Source: Anadara kagoshimensis
Lineage: Eukaryota > Mollusca > Bivalvia > Arcoida > Arcidae
Length of the DNA: 64,000 nt
Direction: 5' to 3'
Assembly: GCA_021292105.1 (NCBI GenBank)
Contig: CM037870.1
Coordinates: 46,642,576 to 46,706,575 of the forward strand
Shown: in pieces, positions 6,253 through 34,063 of the stretch
Position numbering within the stretch: the first letter of the stretch is position 1
Layout: each line of letters begins with the position of its first letter
Position numbers and translations under genes: made by a program
The notes under the pieces: generated by a model
The model's input: only the letters and a program-made list of their open reading frames with translations
Told to the model about the DNA's origin: nothing
The model's database searches: none

Positions 6253-9200
6253 ATGGGGAACCAATTGACGGGAATTGCCCCATCACAGATTCAGCCTGTA
6301 GAACAGTATTTAAATGATATTCCTGATTATGAATTTGATTGCAAGTAAGTAAGAAAATTTAATCGCTTATAATTGATTTTGAATAGGGATGGTACTTTGC
6401 TATTCAGGTCTCTTCCAGGAATGCATGCTACCGGTAATTGCTATACTTTGTGAAACTTGTAAAAGGCAAAAAATTACAAGTTAAATGTCTGTGAAATAAT
6501 TACCGGTACTCCAAGATTTGAAATAACAATGGAAATACAAAATTCCAAAATGCTTAATTTCTGTCACTTAACCTATAGAAGGTGATGTCCCAATAGTGGC
6601 CAATACAAGTAAAATACTAATAGGACTTAAAACCCCATTCAAACTTGAATATAATACCAGTGATTTTGTTTGCTTAAAATTACTATCAAATAAAGGTAGT
6701 TTCCCTCAGGTAAAAATAACTAAAATTTTACAATTTGTCCACAAAAATTCCCCAAAACAATAGTGATATACCGGTACTGTAGTAAAATTAAATATATTGT
6801 ACATATGTACATTGTAGTTGTCCTTGTCCACAAAATATCAGATAGTGCCACAATATAGTGTCTTTGCAATGAACACACTAGCTATTGCCAGCATATTATA
6901 ATGCAGTTTGCTAGATCTTAGTATTTCAATTTTCCCAATCTCAAAGGCAGAAGGTAGTTTTTAAAAATGTAACAAAATCACTGGATACTTTTCCAACATA
7001 AGATACATGAGATACATAAACATATAACTGTTATAGAATGGTAATTTTAAAATGAAATATTCTAATAACAGTAGCTGAACAATTTTTTATATGTCTGTTT
7101 TCAGCCTTGGAAGTACAAGATTTTTCAAAGTAGCCAGAGCTAAATTCAAAGAAGGTTTAACAGTTGTAAAAGTTTTTGTTATTCATGACCCCTCATTACC
7201 ATTATCAGCACTCAGATCACAGCTAGAAGGTAAGTCAGCTGTCTCATACATTTTTTTTTTCACTTTTCAGCATATCATGAAAAGATCATTTTCTGTAACT
7301 GGCATCATACCTATGGGTATTCTCACAATTAAGCTTTTTTTCATGTTTTCATGATTTCACAACTTGGAAAAAACACCAATTCTGAAGTAACAAATGCTAA
7401 ACTAAAGTCATAGGAAAATAATGTTAATTTTTGACAAAAGGGAGTAAAATCTAAATTTAAAAAAATTAACATATCTGAAATCAGAGGGAAATTTTAGAGT
7501 GCATATAAAAAATCTTGAGTTAGTATTTTGCCCTTTCACAGCTCAGCAGATAACATAAGTACTGGTATAAGTAGTTCAAAGCTATGCCATACATGTATTT
7601 GATGATCCCAATGAAACCCAACACATCTTGTGTATCATCTTTCTCCCTTAATTAAACCTGGACAAATAAAGGGAATTTGAATTTATTTACATGTAATCTT
7701 TGTGGCAAGTCCTAAGTAAATGCATTAACTTTTTTTAGCTGATCAGAATGCTGGCCTAGATTTTATAGTTTCACAAACACATCTTGCATCATTCTTTCAT
7801 GATCAAGTTAAATGTGTACCATACATATATAGTTTTACATATATATAATTATCATCGGATCCTCAAGAAATTATTTTTTTTTTTTGTAGATATAGCCTTG
7901 CGTATTCAGGGAACTACAAATTGTCTACCTTTCCAAAGAGCTGTGGTAAGTATGTAACAAAAATTTCATGAAAATCGGTTCAAACATAAATCCAAATAAT
8001 TTAAAAAAAAAAATCTTAATTAACATAGACACCAATGGGAAAATTACATAATGTTATTTCTCATTTCTAAACATCTTCTAACATTGTCTACAAGTCTCAT
8101 TTTAAATCTTTAAATTTGTACCCGGATATGAAAGTGATCATACAATTTTATGCCAAAGAAAAGTTGTTGCCATCAATTATATTCAATGATCATTTGTTTA
8201 GTGACATCATTTAACATGGTTACTTTTCACACCTGAATATTACAAATTTGCTCTGGTCACATGGCAAGACTTACAAACCCTATAACTAATCAAGTTATAG
8301 TACAGATTAAAGATAAATTGATTTAGAGTGTTGAGTATGGAGTGTAATAGTAGAGTACAGTAAAGTGTTTGACAGAATCACACTGCTAATTTTGAATTCC
8401 ATAAATCTGCACTGTACTTGTGTTTTGTTATTTGTTATAGGTCGACTGTAACTTCTTAGATTCAAATCAGTTGCATAAATTTGTACTGAACTTGTGTTTG
8501 GTTATTTTTTATAAACTAACTGTTTGACAGACTTTTCAAACTCATCAAATCACTGACTTAGTTGCATAAATATGAGCATGTATTTTATTATTTGTAGCAA
8601 TCAGATAAAGCTGCTTTACTGTTCAGACAGTTCATCAAAGATAGCTTGTATGACAGAATTAGTACTCGACCATTTCTTATTAAAATAGAGAAAAGATGGT
8701 TGGCATTTCAACTACTCTGTGCTTTGAACCAGTGCCATAAGGTCAAAGTATGTACAGTCATTATAGATTTTGAACTTGTATATAAACCAATTGCTTATAG
8801 ACCACAATCTTCTGTCAGTTTAATTTTGTGTCTACTAGTGTTTCTTTTCGTTTGTTAATCCATTTTATATATACCCTAAAAGTATCCACAAGCAATTTTT
8901 AGGTCCCTGTGTACTAGGAGAAGGGTGTTTCCTATTGCAACACCTGCTACACAAGAAGCACCAGTTAATAGTAAAATTACATGGTAGTATCATATGGAGA
9001 TTTAGCAGTCATAGCTGTATTAGCACAATTTTAGCTACTGTAGGAAGATGTTAAATACAGTTACTGTAGTATTTACCGGTATAAAACATATTTTAATAAT
9101 GTATATCTAGCATTACTGATTGTCATATTGAAACATCTGGCTTAACTATAATTGGTGTGAATTGTGTATGCATTTACATCACATATAGGATATAATTGCA

Positions 9201-29200: not shown

Positions 29201-32200
29201 CATAACAGTTTTTTCAGCAACTTCTAAACACTGCCACTTGAAATTTTGTATGCGAGTTCAGTATGAGGTCCCATGGCATGATACCACAAGTACCAATTTC
29301 AAGTCTGCCAGACACCTGCTTCACATTTTGTTTGTATTCTAACATATATATGTTAAAAGCGGGGTATACTATGTGAGCAGTAGCTCAGATTTCTTGTTGT
29401 AAACTGGTATAAAACTTAGTCAGTACACATGTCATACTGAATTGTTATATAGCTTACATTGATATTTATATTTCAGGTGGTAAGATCAGAGGTCTAGTGT
29501 TTTGTGATAACTCAGACTCTTTAGCTGCAGCATCAGATAACAGCACTATATATGTCTACAAGTAATACCTTATAAACAATAATATAACCTTGTTCCTTGA
29601 CTTCAACTCACCTAACTTATAGTATCAAAAAGCTTATAAGCTCCAGCTTAATGTGAGAAAGTATGTCAGCTCTCTCGCTATTGGTTTGCTGGTTTACTGT
29701 AGACAGTCTGGTTTTATTTACTATTATAAAACTGACCACCTTATTATAAGTAATATAATCATGACTTGAGCATAAAATACCATTCTTTTCATCATATATT
29801 TGATTTAGATACTGGTACATGCATGAATGATTTTAGATGCTTCTTTGAAATGCAAATTGTATACCTTTTGTAATAAAATTTGGAGCCTTACAGTGGTGCT
29901 ATAACCACACCATTGGATACTAGTATTAATTGCAGCTTGTTCAAGGTCTGGTGCTTTGTAGTAAGTGTTCCATGTTTTGTCTTGTCTTTGCGGTGTAACT
30001 ACCATTAACTTGTATTGTTCTAAGTTCTCTGTTGCATTGGTTGTTTTTAATTACACTTTTGTTTCTTCTATTATTACAGAATTGAAACAGGAAAGGCTAT
30101 GTTGATGAAAAACATGACCATAGATAAAGATGATGTAGGAAATATTGTAGATATTTCACATTTTGATACAGGTACAGCATAATGATAGATACAGGGTCTG
30201 TAAATTATGTGACTGTTGTGAATTTTTGGTTTCTGGATACAAGAACAATAAGTGAATTTAGAAAAATAAAACCATATTTATCCACTCAATAGTACATAAT
30301 TGTTTTATTATATAAATACCAATCTTGAAAATATTTAAAAACACTCAAAATAATATAAAACTTTGTATTATTTTCAATATTCAACACAAAGATACTGTAT
30401 AAAGCTGATGGTATGATATTCACCAGTTTTTCCATACTGTATGGAATTTTAATTTTTGTGTTCGTGGACAATTAAATAATTATAGAACATTTATTTATAA
30501 TTTACTTGTATATAATAAATATAATAGCCAGTAGCATTTATGTGTATTGTTTGAACTTTTCAGGTGCTCAGTCAGTATTGGTGTATGCTACAGTAAATGG
30601 TTATTTAATTGGTTGGGACTTGCGCAGTAATGAAGAAATATGGCGGCTAAAGAACGAACCAAAAACTGGTAAGATCTGCTTCATAACTTTACATTTTCTG
30701 CAAAGGGGCTTCTTTTTTAAGGAAATTGTTTGTCAATAGTTTTTTGATGTTATTTTAATATGCCATCTGTAATAACTAACTAGAAACTTTAATGGGGGGA
30801 AATTAAATGGGGTAGAATCTTAAGACTCATTCAAAATTATAAATTTCTTCAACTTAACCTGTAATTGGTGATGCCTCAATATAAATTTAGGGAAAAAAAT
30901 TGTGGTTGAACATCATTATAATCAAATCCAGTCGGATATTAATTAGATATAGATATAAAAAAATGATTGTGTAATTCAAAATCTTTTCGTTTTCTTCACA
31001 GGTTTGATATCCTCATTTGCTGTACATCATTCTCAGTGTTGGTTAAGTGTTGGAACCAGTAGTGGGACACATGTATGTTGGGACCTCAGATTTCAGCTAC
31101 CTATTACATCAATAATTCATCCTACAGGTAAGGGTAACCCTATGTTATAAGTGTTGGGTTAAGTATTGAAACTAGTAGTGGGATGCATGTATGTTGGGAC
31201 CTTAGATTTCAGCTACCTATTACATCAATAATTCATCCTACAGGTTAGAGAAGTGGATTGTAGTAATGAAGTGTTCTGCCCCAGTTTGGACTCTCACTTA
31301 TATTGAATTGGTCAGTTCAGAGATAGTGGAGGAAAATGGTTTGCTTGGAGAAAACCACTGACCTTCAGTAAGCAAATTGACAAACTTTCTCACACTAGGA
31401 TCTGCACGAATGGGATTGAAACCTAGGCTATAAGAGGCACTGTATGGATCTGTGAGGCTCTGCCTTAAACCACTTGGCAACAGAAGCACCCAAAAAAAAT
31501 GAACATGTCAAAATGTATGTGCACAAATATCCAGTCACAAAATACTGAACACAATTATGAATATATATTAATTAATGTAACTTTGTTACAATGTACAATG
31601 TAATATGTCTTGATGATATATTGATATACATTTATTATAAACAGGTGCTAGAGTCAGACGCTTAATTGCTCACCCTCAGGAACAATCTTGGATTATATCT
31701 GCTACCCAGGGTAATAATGAAGTATCCATGTGGGACGTAGAGACTGGAGCTAGACAGAGAGTACTCTGGGCAAGTCCTGTCACACCCCTCTCACAGAACC
31801 AGGTTAGTTTTATCAGTCACACTGAAATGAAATTTGCCAAGCTCAGTTATATAGTTGTCCCCCTGTACTAAAGTAACCTTTCCCTTACTGCAGCAAGACT
31901 CTGAATAATTTGGCCTGAAAATACGAGTACTATTGAGCCTACACTGGAGGTCCCAATATAGGATATGATTTAAATGGTCTCTTATGGTGGAGTAGCCTCT
32001 TTTACACACTTACTAGAGGCATACAGCTGCCAACCAGAGAATGCTCAAACATAAGATCACAATTTCAAAATCAAAGCATTTTTGCACTATTCAAGATGAG
32101 TTTGTCAATCATATTGTGGTCAATGAGCAGTACCAAAAAATTTTTCAACAAATTATGGATTTAGGATCTGTTGTCTAGATTTTATACCCCGCCACATGTT

Positions 32201-34063
32201 GTCAGCCACTGACATTATCTTTTCTTGTCAGTATGGCTTGCCATCTGTCATATTTTGATTTCCAAGCAATAACTTGCGAATTTCCACAAATTTTGATGAT
32301 GCTTGGATTACTTATATGTATATATGTGTGATAAAAAACAAGTCAGGTTTGAATTTTAATATTTTTTTACCAAGCAGTTTCCCATTTATTGTACATGTAA
32401 TTTGTTTTTTTTTCCTTTAAATTCATCAGACAGATGTCAACCTGTTAGGTTTTTTTGTATGCTTATTGATACATTTTGGTAAATTCTGAAAATTGAAAAA
32501 TACAACTTTGATACTCCTTCATTTGAGTGGGAGGTTGTGGGCTAGAACCCCAACCGGGTCTGACCCAAGATTTGAAAGTGGGTAGTGGCTTTTCTTTTGC
32601 CAAGCACTCGGCATTATGAAATGAAAGTCATTGTTCTTTTGGATGGAAACTTAAAATAAATTAGGTCCTGTGTCACGGTAGGCCTGGCATGATAAAGAAC
32701 GCTGCTGCATAATGCCATCAGCGCAATGCACAGGCAAAATTTCTGCACCTTTGCCTATAGCTGGCAATGTCTCGATATAAGTGAAATATTCTTGACTGGG
32801 ATGTTAAACACCATTACCCGACTCAACTAAACTCCTTCTTTTGACATATCCTAAAAATTTTTTTGCAGGCTAGCAACCATGCCATATATGGGATACATAC
32901 AGCAGTCACTGATACTAATGTCTTTATGTTGACTGGTGGCTCTGATATGAGGGTCAGATTCTGGGACGTCACATATCCTGCAAACTCTTACATACTGGCA
33001 GGGGCTGCTGCAGATCCAGTACAACAGACAGGTGTTAGTTACAGGTAAGATAGCCACTGATACTAATGTCTTTATGTTGACTGGTGGTTCTGACATGAGG
33101 GTCAGATTCTGGGATGTTACATATCCAGCAAACTCTTATATACTAGCTGGTGCTGCCGCAGATCCAGTACAACAGACAGGTGTAAGTTACCGGTAAGATT
33201 ATTAATCTATTCTAATGAGTGTTTAAGTCTTTATCAAACCTTGGTAGTTTAGGCAGTATATGCTCAACCAACATAACTTTAAAGTAGGCTGCAAAGAAAA
33301 ATGATGTATGCCAGTGTACAATTCATATGTTCTTAATATGAATGACAGCATATGCTTGCCAATTTGTACAGAAACAGTACCACACAAAGCTATGAGGAAT
33401 TACGTATTGTTTCACCCGAAAATTCTCCGTCCAACATGATTATATATTTCTCTTGAACAAAGATTTGAGTCTATAAGCTTGATCATAGACACAATTGATA
33501 TACATACTTTATGTAAATAGTTTTCATTATATGCTTATACAGTTTGACCATACTTTTGTTATCCACATCTTTCAAAGTAATTCTGGATATATTTTTTTCT
33601 TCATAACTGTGAAACACTATTTTACAGAATTTTGATAGGGAACTTTTATCAACATTAATGGGAGATGTGCATATTATTAACCCAAGATGGTTTGATCATT
33701 TTCCTGGGAGTTTTGGCCCTTTGAAGATAAATGCAAATCACAAAAAGTACCTTCTGGTGGGGGATTCCAATTCACTGAATTTTTTTGTTTCAATAGATTG
33801 TCACATCATGGAATTTCTCAAAGAGATCATTATACTAAAACTTGATTGATTTTTTTTTCAGATCAAGGTTAATTGATGGCACTGAGGTAATACAAGAGAC
33901 CTACCAGAAGAAACAAACGACAAATGAGGACATACCTCGTAGAGGACCTGAGATGCCACCTAGTGGCCACCAGGATATTATAAGTGACGTTAATCTATGT
34001 CAAGCTTCTCAGTGTTTAGTGCTTACTGGGTCACGTGATGGTGTCGTAAAAGTGTGGAAATAA
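6253..34063 (+). CDS. PIK3R4: VPS15 / PIK3R4, regulatory subunit of class III PI3-kinase
   Basis: Thirty-four coding exons join in phase to about 1360 codons, close to the human length (1358 as I recall it). VPS15 is the membrane-anchored pseudokinase-like scaffold of the VPS34-VPS15-Beclin complexes that make PI3P for autophagy and endosomal sorting. The start is MGNQLTG, with Gly2 in a typical N-myristoylation context. Order: protein kinase domain (about 26-325), HEAT repeats (about 390-760), a polar low-complexity linker (about 780-1000), then a WD40 propeller to the end ([10 protein letters not shown]). Exon coordinates are given in the four segment entries below. The acceptor of exon 26 (26278) is the least certain junction; it was chosen because it alone keeps the phase. 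Total coding length is 4083 nt including TAA at 34061. The gene appears intact. Two partial exon copies lie in introns 31 and 33. Confidence 0.95.
8360..8597 (+). repeat. Three degenerate copies of the PIK3R4 exon 4 acceptor region
   Basis: Units of about 70-80 bp contain TTTGACAGA, TGCATAAATxTG and CTTGTGTTTxGTTATTT. The last unit ends in the real acceptor TTATTTGTAG and the first ends in a look-alike TTTGTTATAG at 8440. Confidence 0.55.
9515..11030 (+). repeat. Minisatellite (about 29-bp unit) split by a transposon
   Basis: Units of the type GTTGTCATGGTAATCCATAA occur once or twice before 9541 and about four times at 10918-11030. The pogo-like element lies between them, so the array was there first. 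Confidence 0.75.
9543..10911. mobile_element. pogo/Tc1-like non-autonomous element, 1.37 kb
   Basis: The left end CAGTCGAAACC and right end GGTTCGACTG form inverted termini flanked by TA on both sides. Subterminal repeats of CGGTTAATCGCATA occur at both ends. The inside holds a short open frame (9889-10134) unlike any transposase I know. It lies in PIK3R4 intron 5, within a minisatellite. Confidence 0.8.
11977..12080. mobile_element. Short MITE, second copy of the family
   Basis: GGGGTTAGCCAACATACAT at the left and ATGTATGCTACAGAACCCC at the right are imperfect inverted repeats. ATTGATCAC inside the right end matches the copy at 24521. It is in PIK3R4 intron 6. Confidence 0.45.
12835..13075 (+). 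mobile_element. SINE family B copy, 5' truncated
   Basis: Body ATGCCATCAGCGCAACACAC and tail AAGTGAAATATTCTTGACTC match the copy at 32520. PIK3R4 intron 8. Confidence 0.65.
15470..15665 (-). mobile_element. SINE family A copy
   Basis: The minus strand shows the head GGGGCCTCAGTAGCAGAATG and the conserved GGTTTTCTCCAAGTGCTTC block. It lies in PIK3R4 intron 11. Confidence 0.65.
16045..16266 (-). mobile_element. SINE family A copy
   Basis: The minus strand shows the head GGCCTTGGTGGCTGAATGG, the central domain and the TATAxx tail. It lies in PIK3R4 intron 12. Confidence 0.65.
21400..21560 (-). mobile_element. SINE family A copy, tail missing
   Basis: Contains AACTGACAAACTTTCTCACT and a B-box-like region; the tail is lost or strongly changed. 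PIK3R4 intron 19. Confidence 0.55.
22715..22830 (-). mobile_element. SINE family A fragment
   Basis: Contains GGTCAGTTCAGGAATGGTGG and ACAAACTTTCTCTCCCTAGG; the tRNA head is absent. PIK3R4 intron 21. Confidence 0.55.
24521..24647. mobile_element. Short MITE, first copy of a family
   Basis: The ends AGGGTCGGCAAGCC and GGCTAACATACCTCG (inverse of the right end) are imperfect inverted repeats about 127 bp apart, with GATCAATATCC just inside the right end. It shares both ends with the element at 11977-12080. Confidence 0.45.
25683..25850 (-). mobile_element. SINE family A copy beside PIK3R4 exon 25
   Basis: Begins about 45 bp after the exon 25 donor. Tail, central block and part of the head are recognisable although diverged. 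Confidence 0.5.
25855..26080 (-). mobile_element. SINE family B copy
   Basis: Inverted tail (AATGGTGTTTAACGTCCAAG, AGAATATTTCACTTATATC) followed by body words CCAGCTATAGGCGAAATTTTG and TTATGCCAAGTGCTTGGC. Confidence 0.6.
26193..26242 (+). repeat. (ATTT)n microsatellite upstream of PIK3R4 exon 26
   Basis: About twelve ATTT units end some 35 bp before the exon 26 acceptor and supply part of its pyrimidine-rich context. Confidence 0.9.
26455..27740. mobile_element. Non-autonomous hAT-type transposon
   Basis: Terminal inverted repeats CAGGCATGGGG / CCCCATGCCTG are flanked by perfect 8-bp direct repeats CAATGTAC (26447-26454 and 27741-27748), the target-site size of hAT elements. Both ends carry dense subterminal repeats of the type TAATGCATTACA in both orientations. 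The 1286-bp body has no transposase frame. It sits in PIK3R4 intron 26, 11 bases after the exon. Confidence 0.9.
27765..27965 (-). mobile_element. SINE family A copy
   Basis: Tail ACCCCAGTCAAGAACCTTTC, central GAGAAAACCACTACAGCAAG, and the head ends near GACACTGAGG. It lies just right of the hAT element. Confidence 0.6.
29105..29400. repeat. Dispersed repeat starting with a short hairpin
   Basis: CCCCACTTCAAAGAAGTGGGG is a perfect hairpin at the left. CTGTCCTTCTATTCATCTG follows and the right end is AAAGCGGGGTATACTATG. A related piece with TATACCCCGCCACATG is at 32188. PIK3R4 intron 27. Confidence 0.55.
31151..31243 (+). pseudogene. Tandem partial copy of PIK3R4 exon 31
   Basis: The 3' part of exon 31 (about 31035-31127) plus its donor is repeated 116 bp downstream in intron 31. 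The copy has one inserted base and several changes that would alter amino acids (Val to Ile, Gly to Glu, Thr to Met). The end is nearly identical, including ATTCATCCTACAG and a following GT. There is no evident own acceptor. It looks like a decaying, unused copy. Confidence 0.85.
31258..31490 (-). mobile_element. SINE family A, near full-length copy
   Basis: Read on the minus strand, the element starts with a tRNA-Leu/Ser-like head: A-box-like TGGTTTAAGGC, then B-box-like GGTTTCAATCCC. A central domain follows (AAGTTTGTCAATTTGCTTAC, GGTTTTCTCC), then a tail of the type TATAAGTGAGAGTCC. The central domain recalls the core shared by widespread animal SINEs (V-SINE or MetaSINE type), but I cannot confirm the superfamily. 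Confidence 0.75.
32520..32830 (+). mobile_element. SINE family B, longest copy
   Basis: The 5' part has a B-box-like GGCTAGAACCCC. The body contains GGCATTATGAAATGAAAGTC and AATGCCATCAGCGCAATGC. The 3' tail is GATATAAGTGAAATATTCTT followed by GACTGGGATGTTAAACACC. The tail matches that of family A, although head and body differ. PIK3R4 intron 32. Confidence 0.7.
33051..33198 (+). pseudogene. Tandem partial copy of PIK3R4 exon 33 with silent changes only
   Basis: A 148-bp unit (source about 32903-33050) holding the 3' three quarters of exon 33, its donor and about 6 bases of intron is repeated directly downstream. Across 46 comparable codons there are 12 differences and all are synonymous (for example GGC/GGT, CTG/CTA, and AG|A versus CG|A at the splice junction). 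One further difference sits at the breakpoint (GTC/GCC) and may lie outside the unit. The donor GTAAGAT is kept. The only upstream AG is 9 bp after the first donor and would give the wrong phase from exon 32, so normal inclusion is hard to picture. Confidence 0.85.

Follow-up and report, generated by a model that had tools for sequence, protein, structure and literature searches.

The PIK3R4 gene and its duplicated exon end

The window, that is the whole stretch of 64,000 nucleotides that was analysed, carries the coding part of PIK3R4/VPS15 at 6253–34060, from the start Met to the final ...VKVWK; the gene lies on the forward strand, as do all features of the window described below. The gene model was built from open frames, splice signals and the pattern of silent differences between the window and a second locus. 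It delimits 30 exon pieces and is incomplete. When three of these pieces (at 32869, 11367 and 31647) were compared with the PDB, the best match in each case was to PIK3R4 chains, named phosphoinositide 3-kinase regulatory subunit 4 (E-values 9.1e-13, 4e-16 and 5.1e-17), in agreement with the gene name of the original prediction.

The last but one coding exon found, numbered 33 in that prediction, spans 32869–33044 within the WD40 region. Its frame is open, entering in phase 0 and leaving in phase 2. Splice signals were scored on profiles built from 26 acceptors and 23 donors picked in PIK3R4 itself, on which this exon has an acceptor of 10.8 and a donor of 13.1. The 3′ part of the exon, together with the donor bases GTAAGAT, forms the first copy of a tandem unit (W1, 32904–33051), followed head to tail by an intronic second copy (W2, 33052–33199). 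A repeat search and TRF both gave a period of 148 bp per copy and 91% identity, so that the immediate repeat of exon part and donor was recovered as predicted, with coordinates that agree within one base.

W1 and W2 differ at 13 of 148 positions. Codon-by-codon comparison over 32908–33045 (46 codons, the split codon being read as AGG/CGG) reproduced the 12 differences reported before, and all 12 are silent. The remaining difference, T/C at 32906/33054, changes GTC to GCC (Val to Ala) and lies three bases into the unit, so whether it is counted depends on the chosen unit start, which TRF places at 32907. For random hits on the tandem sequence, the expected silent share is 0.261, computed with the transition share measured between the window and the second locus. 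The chance of 12/12 silent differences is then 1e-7 and that of 12/13 is 1e-6, and none of 20,000 simulated sets of 12 hits was free of amino-acid change. Chance was rejected as the origin of the silent-only pattern.

The same tandem at a second locus

With the tandem as query, a DNA search of the species' own genome (1.115 Gb in 36 contigs) listed two places, both on contig C14: the window itself (46675435–46675775; hereafter W) and a second locus about 1.5 Mb away in the same assembly (45173727–45174065, 97%; hereafter P). P carries the same tandem with the same junction at C14:45173770–45174065. A six-frame protein search listed four places, namely the two copies at each locus.

Partial tandem exon duplication, or intragenic tandem duplication with microhomology, is a known class of event. 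The PIK3R4 tandem is a further example: the two copies adjoin head to tail, the unit crosses an exon border, the junction at P has AGT in common with its parents, and the arrangement is present at more than one assembled place. It is unlike that class in that its copies differ only silently, which means that they either diverged before they were joined or did so independently of it.

The presence of the tandem at P bears directly on the suggestion that the ends of two haplotypes were joined in assembly, making one exon end appear twice. The assembly does seem to hold retained haplotypes, and the tandem copies differ as alleles do. But W and P share an identical junction amid different flanking introns, which separate errors would hardly produce; this speaks strongly against a local mis-join, and a one-off mis-assembly is disfavoured. 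An artefact of this kind is quite improbable. The merging of haplotypes is thus an unlikely cause of the tandem, while on the large scale it fares better, since two haplotypes do seem to lie side by side.

Apart from gaps, the window and P align collinearly on one and the same strand, and the homology extends beyond the window to the left (L028) and to the right (L029, 97.4%; L023, 89–91%). Together with its flanks, the window region C14:46632576–46735500 has a collinear second version at C14:45129132–45230357, of very uneven identity: in 2-kb bins, 0.845–0.999 of the aligned bases are identical. Probes of 2.5 kb found a same-strand partner on C14 in four of five cases. The pairs at 46.73/45.23 Mb, 45.90/44.34 Mb (92%, offset 1.56 Mb) and 47.10/45.60 Mb (92%, offset 1.50 Mb) fit one pair of blocks that each measure at least 1.2 Mb and lie about 1.5 Mb from one another. 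For the 2.5-kb probe at 44.00 Mb (L013), the search of the own genome listed no partner. The probe at 48.00 Mb (L027:3000–5500) matched 49.85 Mb on the same strand at 100% over 1412 bases, and its remainder matched at least 38 further places at 90–99%; with so many matches, it looks like a recent insertion at either 48.00 or 49.85 Mb.

A long collinear second copy of variable identity is what a retained haplotype looks like, and alleles that recombine in a population would explain such unevenness more readily than a single duplication event. W and P are therefore probably two haplotypes left side by side in the assembly, judging from alignment. As described in extracts of two sources (PMC7203741, PMC10548655), retained haplotypes resemble the present case in their long, same-strand second copy of uneven identity; they would account for the second locus and not for the 148-bp tandem. 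Counting against the haplotype reading, W and P may be true paralogues. If the second version of the window is a retained haplotype, as seems likely, this assembly may overstate the number of genes.

Two introns near the tandem also vary between the loci. The intron stretch 32519–32833 of W is absent at the matching place in P and resembles several stretches elsewhere in the P block, as an interspersed repeat would. The intron after the tandem (33260–33782) can hardly be aligned between W and P, and the exons on either side of it are nearly the same.

Silent divergence among the four copies

Over 148 bp, the number of differences is 1 for W1–P1, 6 for P1–P2, 7 for W1–P2, 8 for W2–P2, 12 for W2–P1 and 13 for W1–W2. 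All are silent except at the edge codon of W2, giving 0 or 1 non-silent differences in each of the six pairs. The corresponding silent divergences, taken over codons 32905–33042 without the split codon, are 0.031 (W1–P1), 0.184 (P1–P2), 0.184 (W2–P2), 0.214 (W1–P2), 0.306 (W2–P1) and 0.337 (W1–W2). Copy 1 is thus nearly alike at the two loci and copy 2 is not.

Across the 30 exon pieces, W and P have a silent divergence of 0.112 (0 to 0.346 in single pieces) and five non-silent differences in 1232 codons. The tandem copies therefore differ as alleles of PIK3R4 do, with W1–W2 at the upper end, above the W–P value of 29 of the 30 pieces. The original prediction had held the synonymous difference too dense for ordinary alleles. 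That argument is weakened, since single exon pieces reach 35% between W and P; it keeps some force in that 29 of 30 lie below the 34% of W1–W2. Silent diversity can be very high elsewhere, as in a barnacle, for which the extracted text of PMC8270832 gives about 20% at four-fold sites.

A further suggestion was that copy 2 had been overwritten by gene conversion from a paralogue. The seven changes peculiar to W2 are arranged in a way that such an event could leave: six are silent and bunched at copy-1 positions 32968–33043, and the seventh is at the edge. But no source was found: neither the protein nor the DNA search of the species' own genome listed a copy beyond the four known, in the present assembly, which may be incomplete. 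We regard conversion from elsewhere as extremely improbable.

The amino-acid conservation of copy 2 also limits its age as intronic sequence. Had it been untranslated since the split of W2 and P2, 21.9 non-silent hits would be expected; one was seen (P = 7e-9), and a neutral intronic copy of that age was rejected. Had it been untranslated only since the split of W1 and P1, about 3.1 would be expected against the one seen (P(≤1) = 0.18), an estimate that depends on a single silent difference between W1 and P1, P(≤1) falling to 0.01 or less with two or three. The likeness of W1 and P1 could itself arise by chance with P of 0.025 to 0.13. The deficit of non-silent changes indicates that copy 2 has only recently ceased to be coding sequence, or is coding still.

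Splice signals and possible uses of copy 2

Each copy ends in a donor. D1 (CAG|GTAAGAT, 33045–33051) scores 13.1, above all 23 reference donors, and in the window outscores D2 (CCG|GTAAGAT, 33193–33199; 10.7, rank 19 of 23). At P the two donors are alike at 13.1, so donor strength alone would not exclude copy 2 there. Besides the exon's own acceptor, two acceptors of note lie ahead of copy 2: one at 33045 (6.7), which leads to a stop, and a weak, in-frame one at 33002 (3.4). Two further arrangements were rejected on reading by hand. An exon that kept the normal acceptor and extended as far as D2 would meet a TAA at once, and splicing a GT where copy 1 begins to the AG where copy 2 begins would break the frame. 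Given the scores of D1 and of the acceptors ahead of copy 2, and the stop met when D2 is paired with the normal acceptor, the plain expectation is that the exon ends at D1 and that copy 2 leaves with the intron.

Continued use of copy 2 would call for a different route. The preceding exon could be spliced to the acceptor at 33002, within the end of copy 1, giving a hypothetical exon (33002–33192) that runs to D2. In this exon copy 2 would keep its normal frame, preceded by the end of copy 1 read in a second one; since it overlaps the normal exon, the two would exclude each other. The frame from 33002 to D2 is open at both loci (open reading frame 32969–33193 in the window) and its phase matches the preceding exon, a fit with a one-in-three chance of arising anyway. 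Translation of copy 2 is also consistent with the silent shares of 12/12 (12/13 with the edge codon) for W1–W2, 6/6 for P1–P2 and 7/8 for W2–P2, with a W2–P2 silent divergence (0.184) resembling that of the exons just upstream (0.11–0.18), and with the small change in copy 1 between W and P. But the 3.4 of the acceptor at 33002 is rank 1 of 26 true sites, and 393 of the 3397 AGs in the window score at least 3. The isoform would moreover drop the first 35 bases of the exon, which probably encode the start of a WD40 blade, and silent-only differences in both copies are explained by an allelic origin as well. That copy 2 is translated by this route appears doubtful.

Mutually exclusive tandem exons are a known class. 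The two PIK3R4 copies resemble them as adjoining copies of one exon end without amino-acid change save at the edge codon. They depart from them in that copy 2 lacks the first 35 bases of the exon and, where each member of such a pair has a good acceptor and donor of its own, has a donor only, with no good in-frame acceptor; its use is hypothetical. It is unlikely that copy 2 is a functional alternative exon overlapping the normal one, in a putative exclusive pair made without a new acceptor region. If it were real, a 148-bp tandem duplication would have made an exclusive exon pair in VPS15, with the end of copy 1 serving two frames.

Copy 2 might instead supply a small extra exon, with an intron from D1 to ATGAG (33099) or GTCAG (33105) and an exon from there to D2 of 93 or 87 nt, which would add 31 or 29 residues. 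Splicing to either acceptor preserves the frame, and a TACTAAT upstream of them was read by hand. Such an exon would mirror the gain of an intron by tandem duplication, for which the excerpted text of PMC4974935 describes a precedent in potato RdRp, where a duplication across an exon border gave a new intron. The duplicated segment likewise spans an exon–intron border in PIK3R4, but here the unit spans the donor side and copy 2 has no good acceptor. On the acceptor profile of PIK3R4, ATGAG reaches −4.8 and GTCAG −5.3, and neither is a usable new acceptor. The resulting intron would be only 55 or 61 nt long, and three of the silent changes fall in the part of copy 2 that it would occupy. A small extra exon is very unlikely.

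Probable joining of diverged alleles

We consider it probable that the tandem is a recent partial duplication whose copies come from different working alleles, and that copy 2 is now lost with the intron. This agrees best with the original suggestion that both versions were shaped as coding sequence and then joined, and the earlier interpretation as a whole is borne out in part. The silent-only pattern is real; alone it is no proof that copy 2 is used.

The proposed course of events, whose order we infer from the copies themselves, would be as follows. The 148-bp stretch that covers the 3′ end of the penultimate exon found, with its donor, would have been duplicated in tandem. At P, copy 2 is followed by GTAAGATAGTGTTAAG, and the junction reads GTAAGATAGTCACTG; this junction has the three bases AGT in common with both parents, so the tandem can arise by joining at that AGT. 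The species would carry very diverged alleles, and either the joining itself took place between alleles or copy 2 was later exchanged with single-copy alleles by ordinary recombination. Both versions would have been held by selection as coding sequence until recently, hence their silent differences. Today the exon would end at D1, and splicing would remove copy 2 along with the intron. This course of events builds on three observations: the occurrence of the tandem at both loci, the silent-only nature of the differences, and the silent divergence between W and P. The single difference between W1 and P1, against eight between W2 and P2, is what one would expect if the two loci had a young copy 1 in common and drew copy 2 from separate alleles.

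Several observations count against the joining of alleles. Neither of the two loci is a single-copy allele of the exon, the tandem being present at both. The W1–W2 divergence is higher than in nearly all exon pieces, as given above, and the likeness of W1 and P1 is perhaps due to chance. In a very diverse species, adjoining copies that differ only silently can give a false impression of selection on a spare exon.

A decayed exon copy elsewhere in PIK3R4

Two exons upstream, TRF and the comparison of W with P revealed a partial tandem copy of another exon's end and donor (31035–31245). It is doubled in W only, P having one copy. Its second copy, from about 31150, is decayed, with one inserted base, a changed donor and six substitutions counted by eye, two silent and four non-silent. 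Spare exon ends do decay in the PIK3R4 locus. This decay points to either youth or use of the 148-bp copy 2, and does not decide between them. It also counts against the joining of diverged alleles, as spare copies here can decay unrefreshed. The gene thus offers a case, with its own decayed control, for telling a recent joining of alleles from genuine use of an exon duplicate. Tandem repeats of two to three copies and a period of at least 80 bp are not rare in this region, with 18 in 314 kb when the loci are counted separately.
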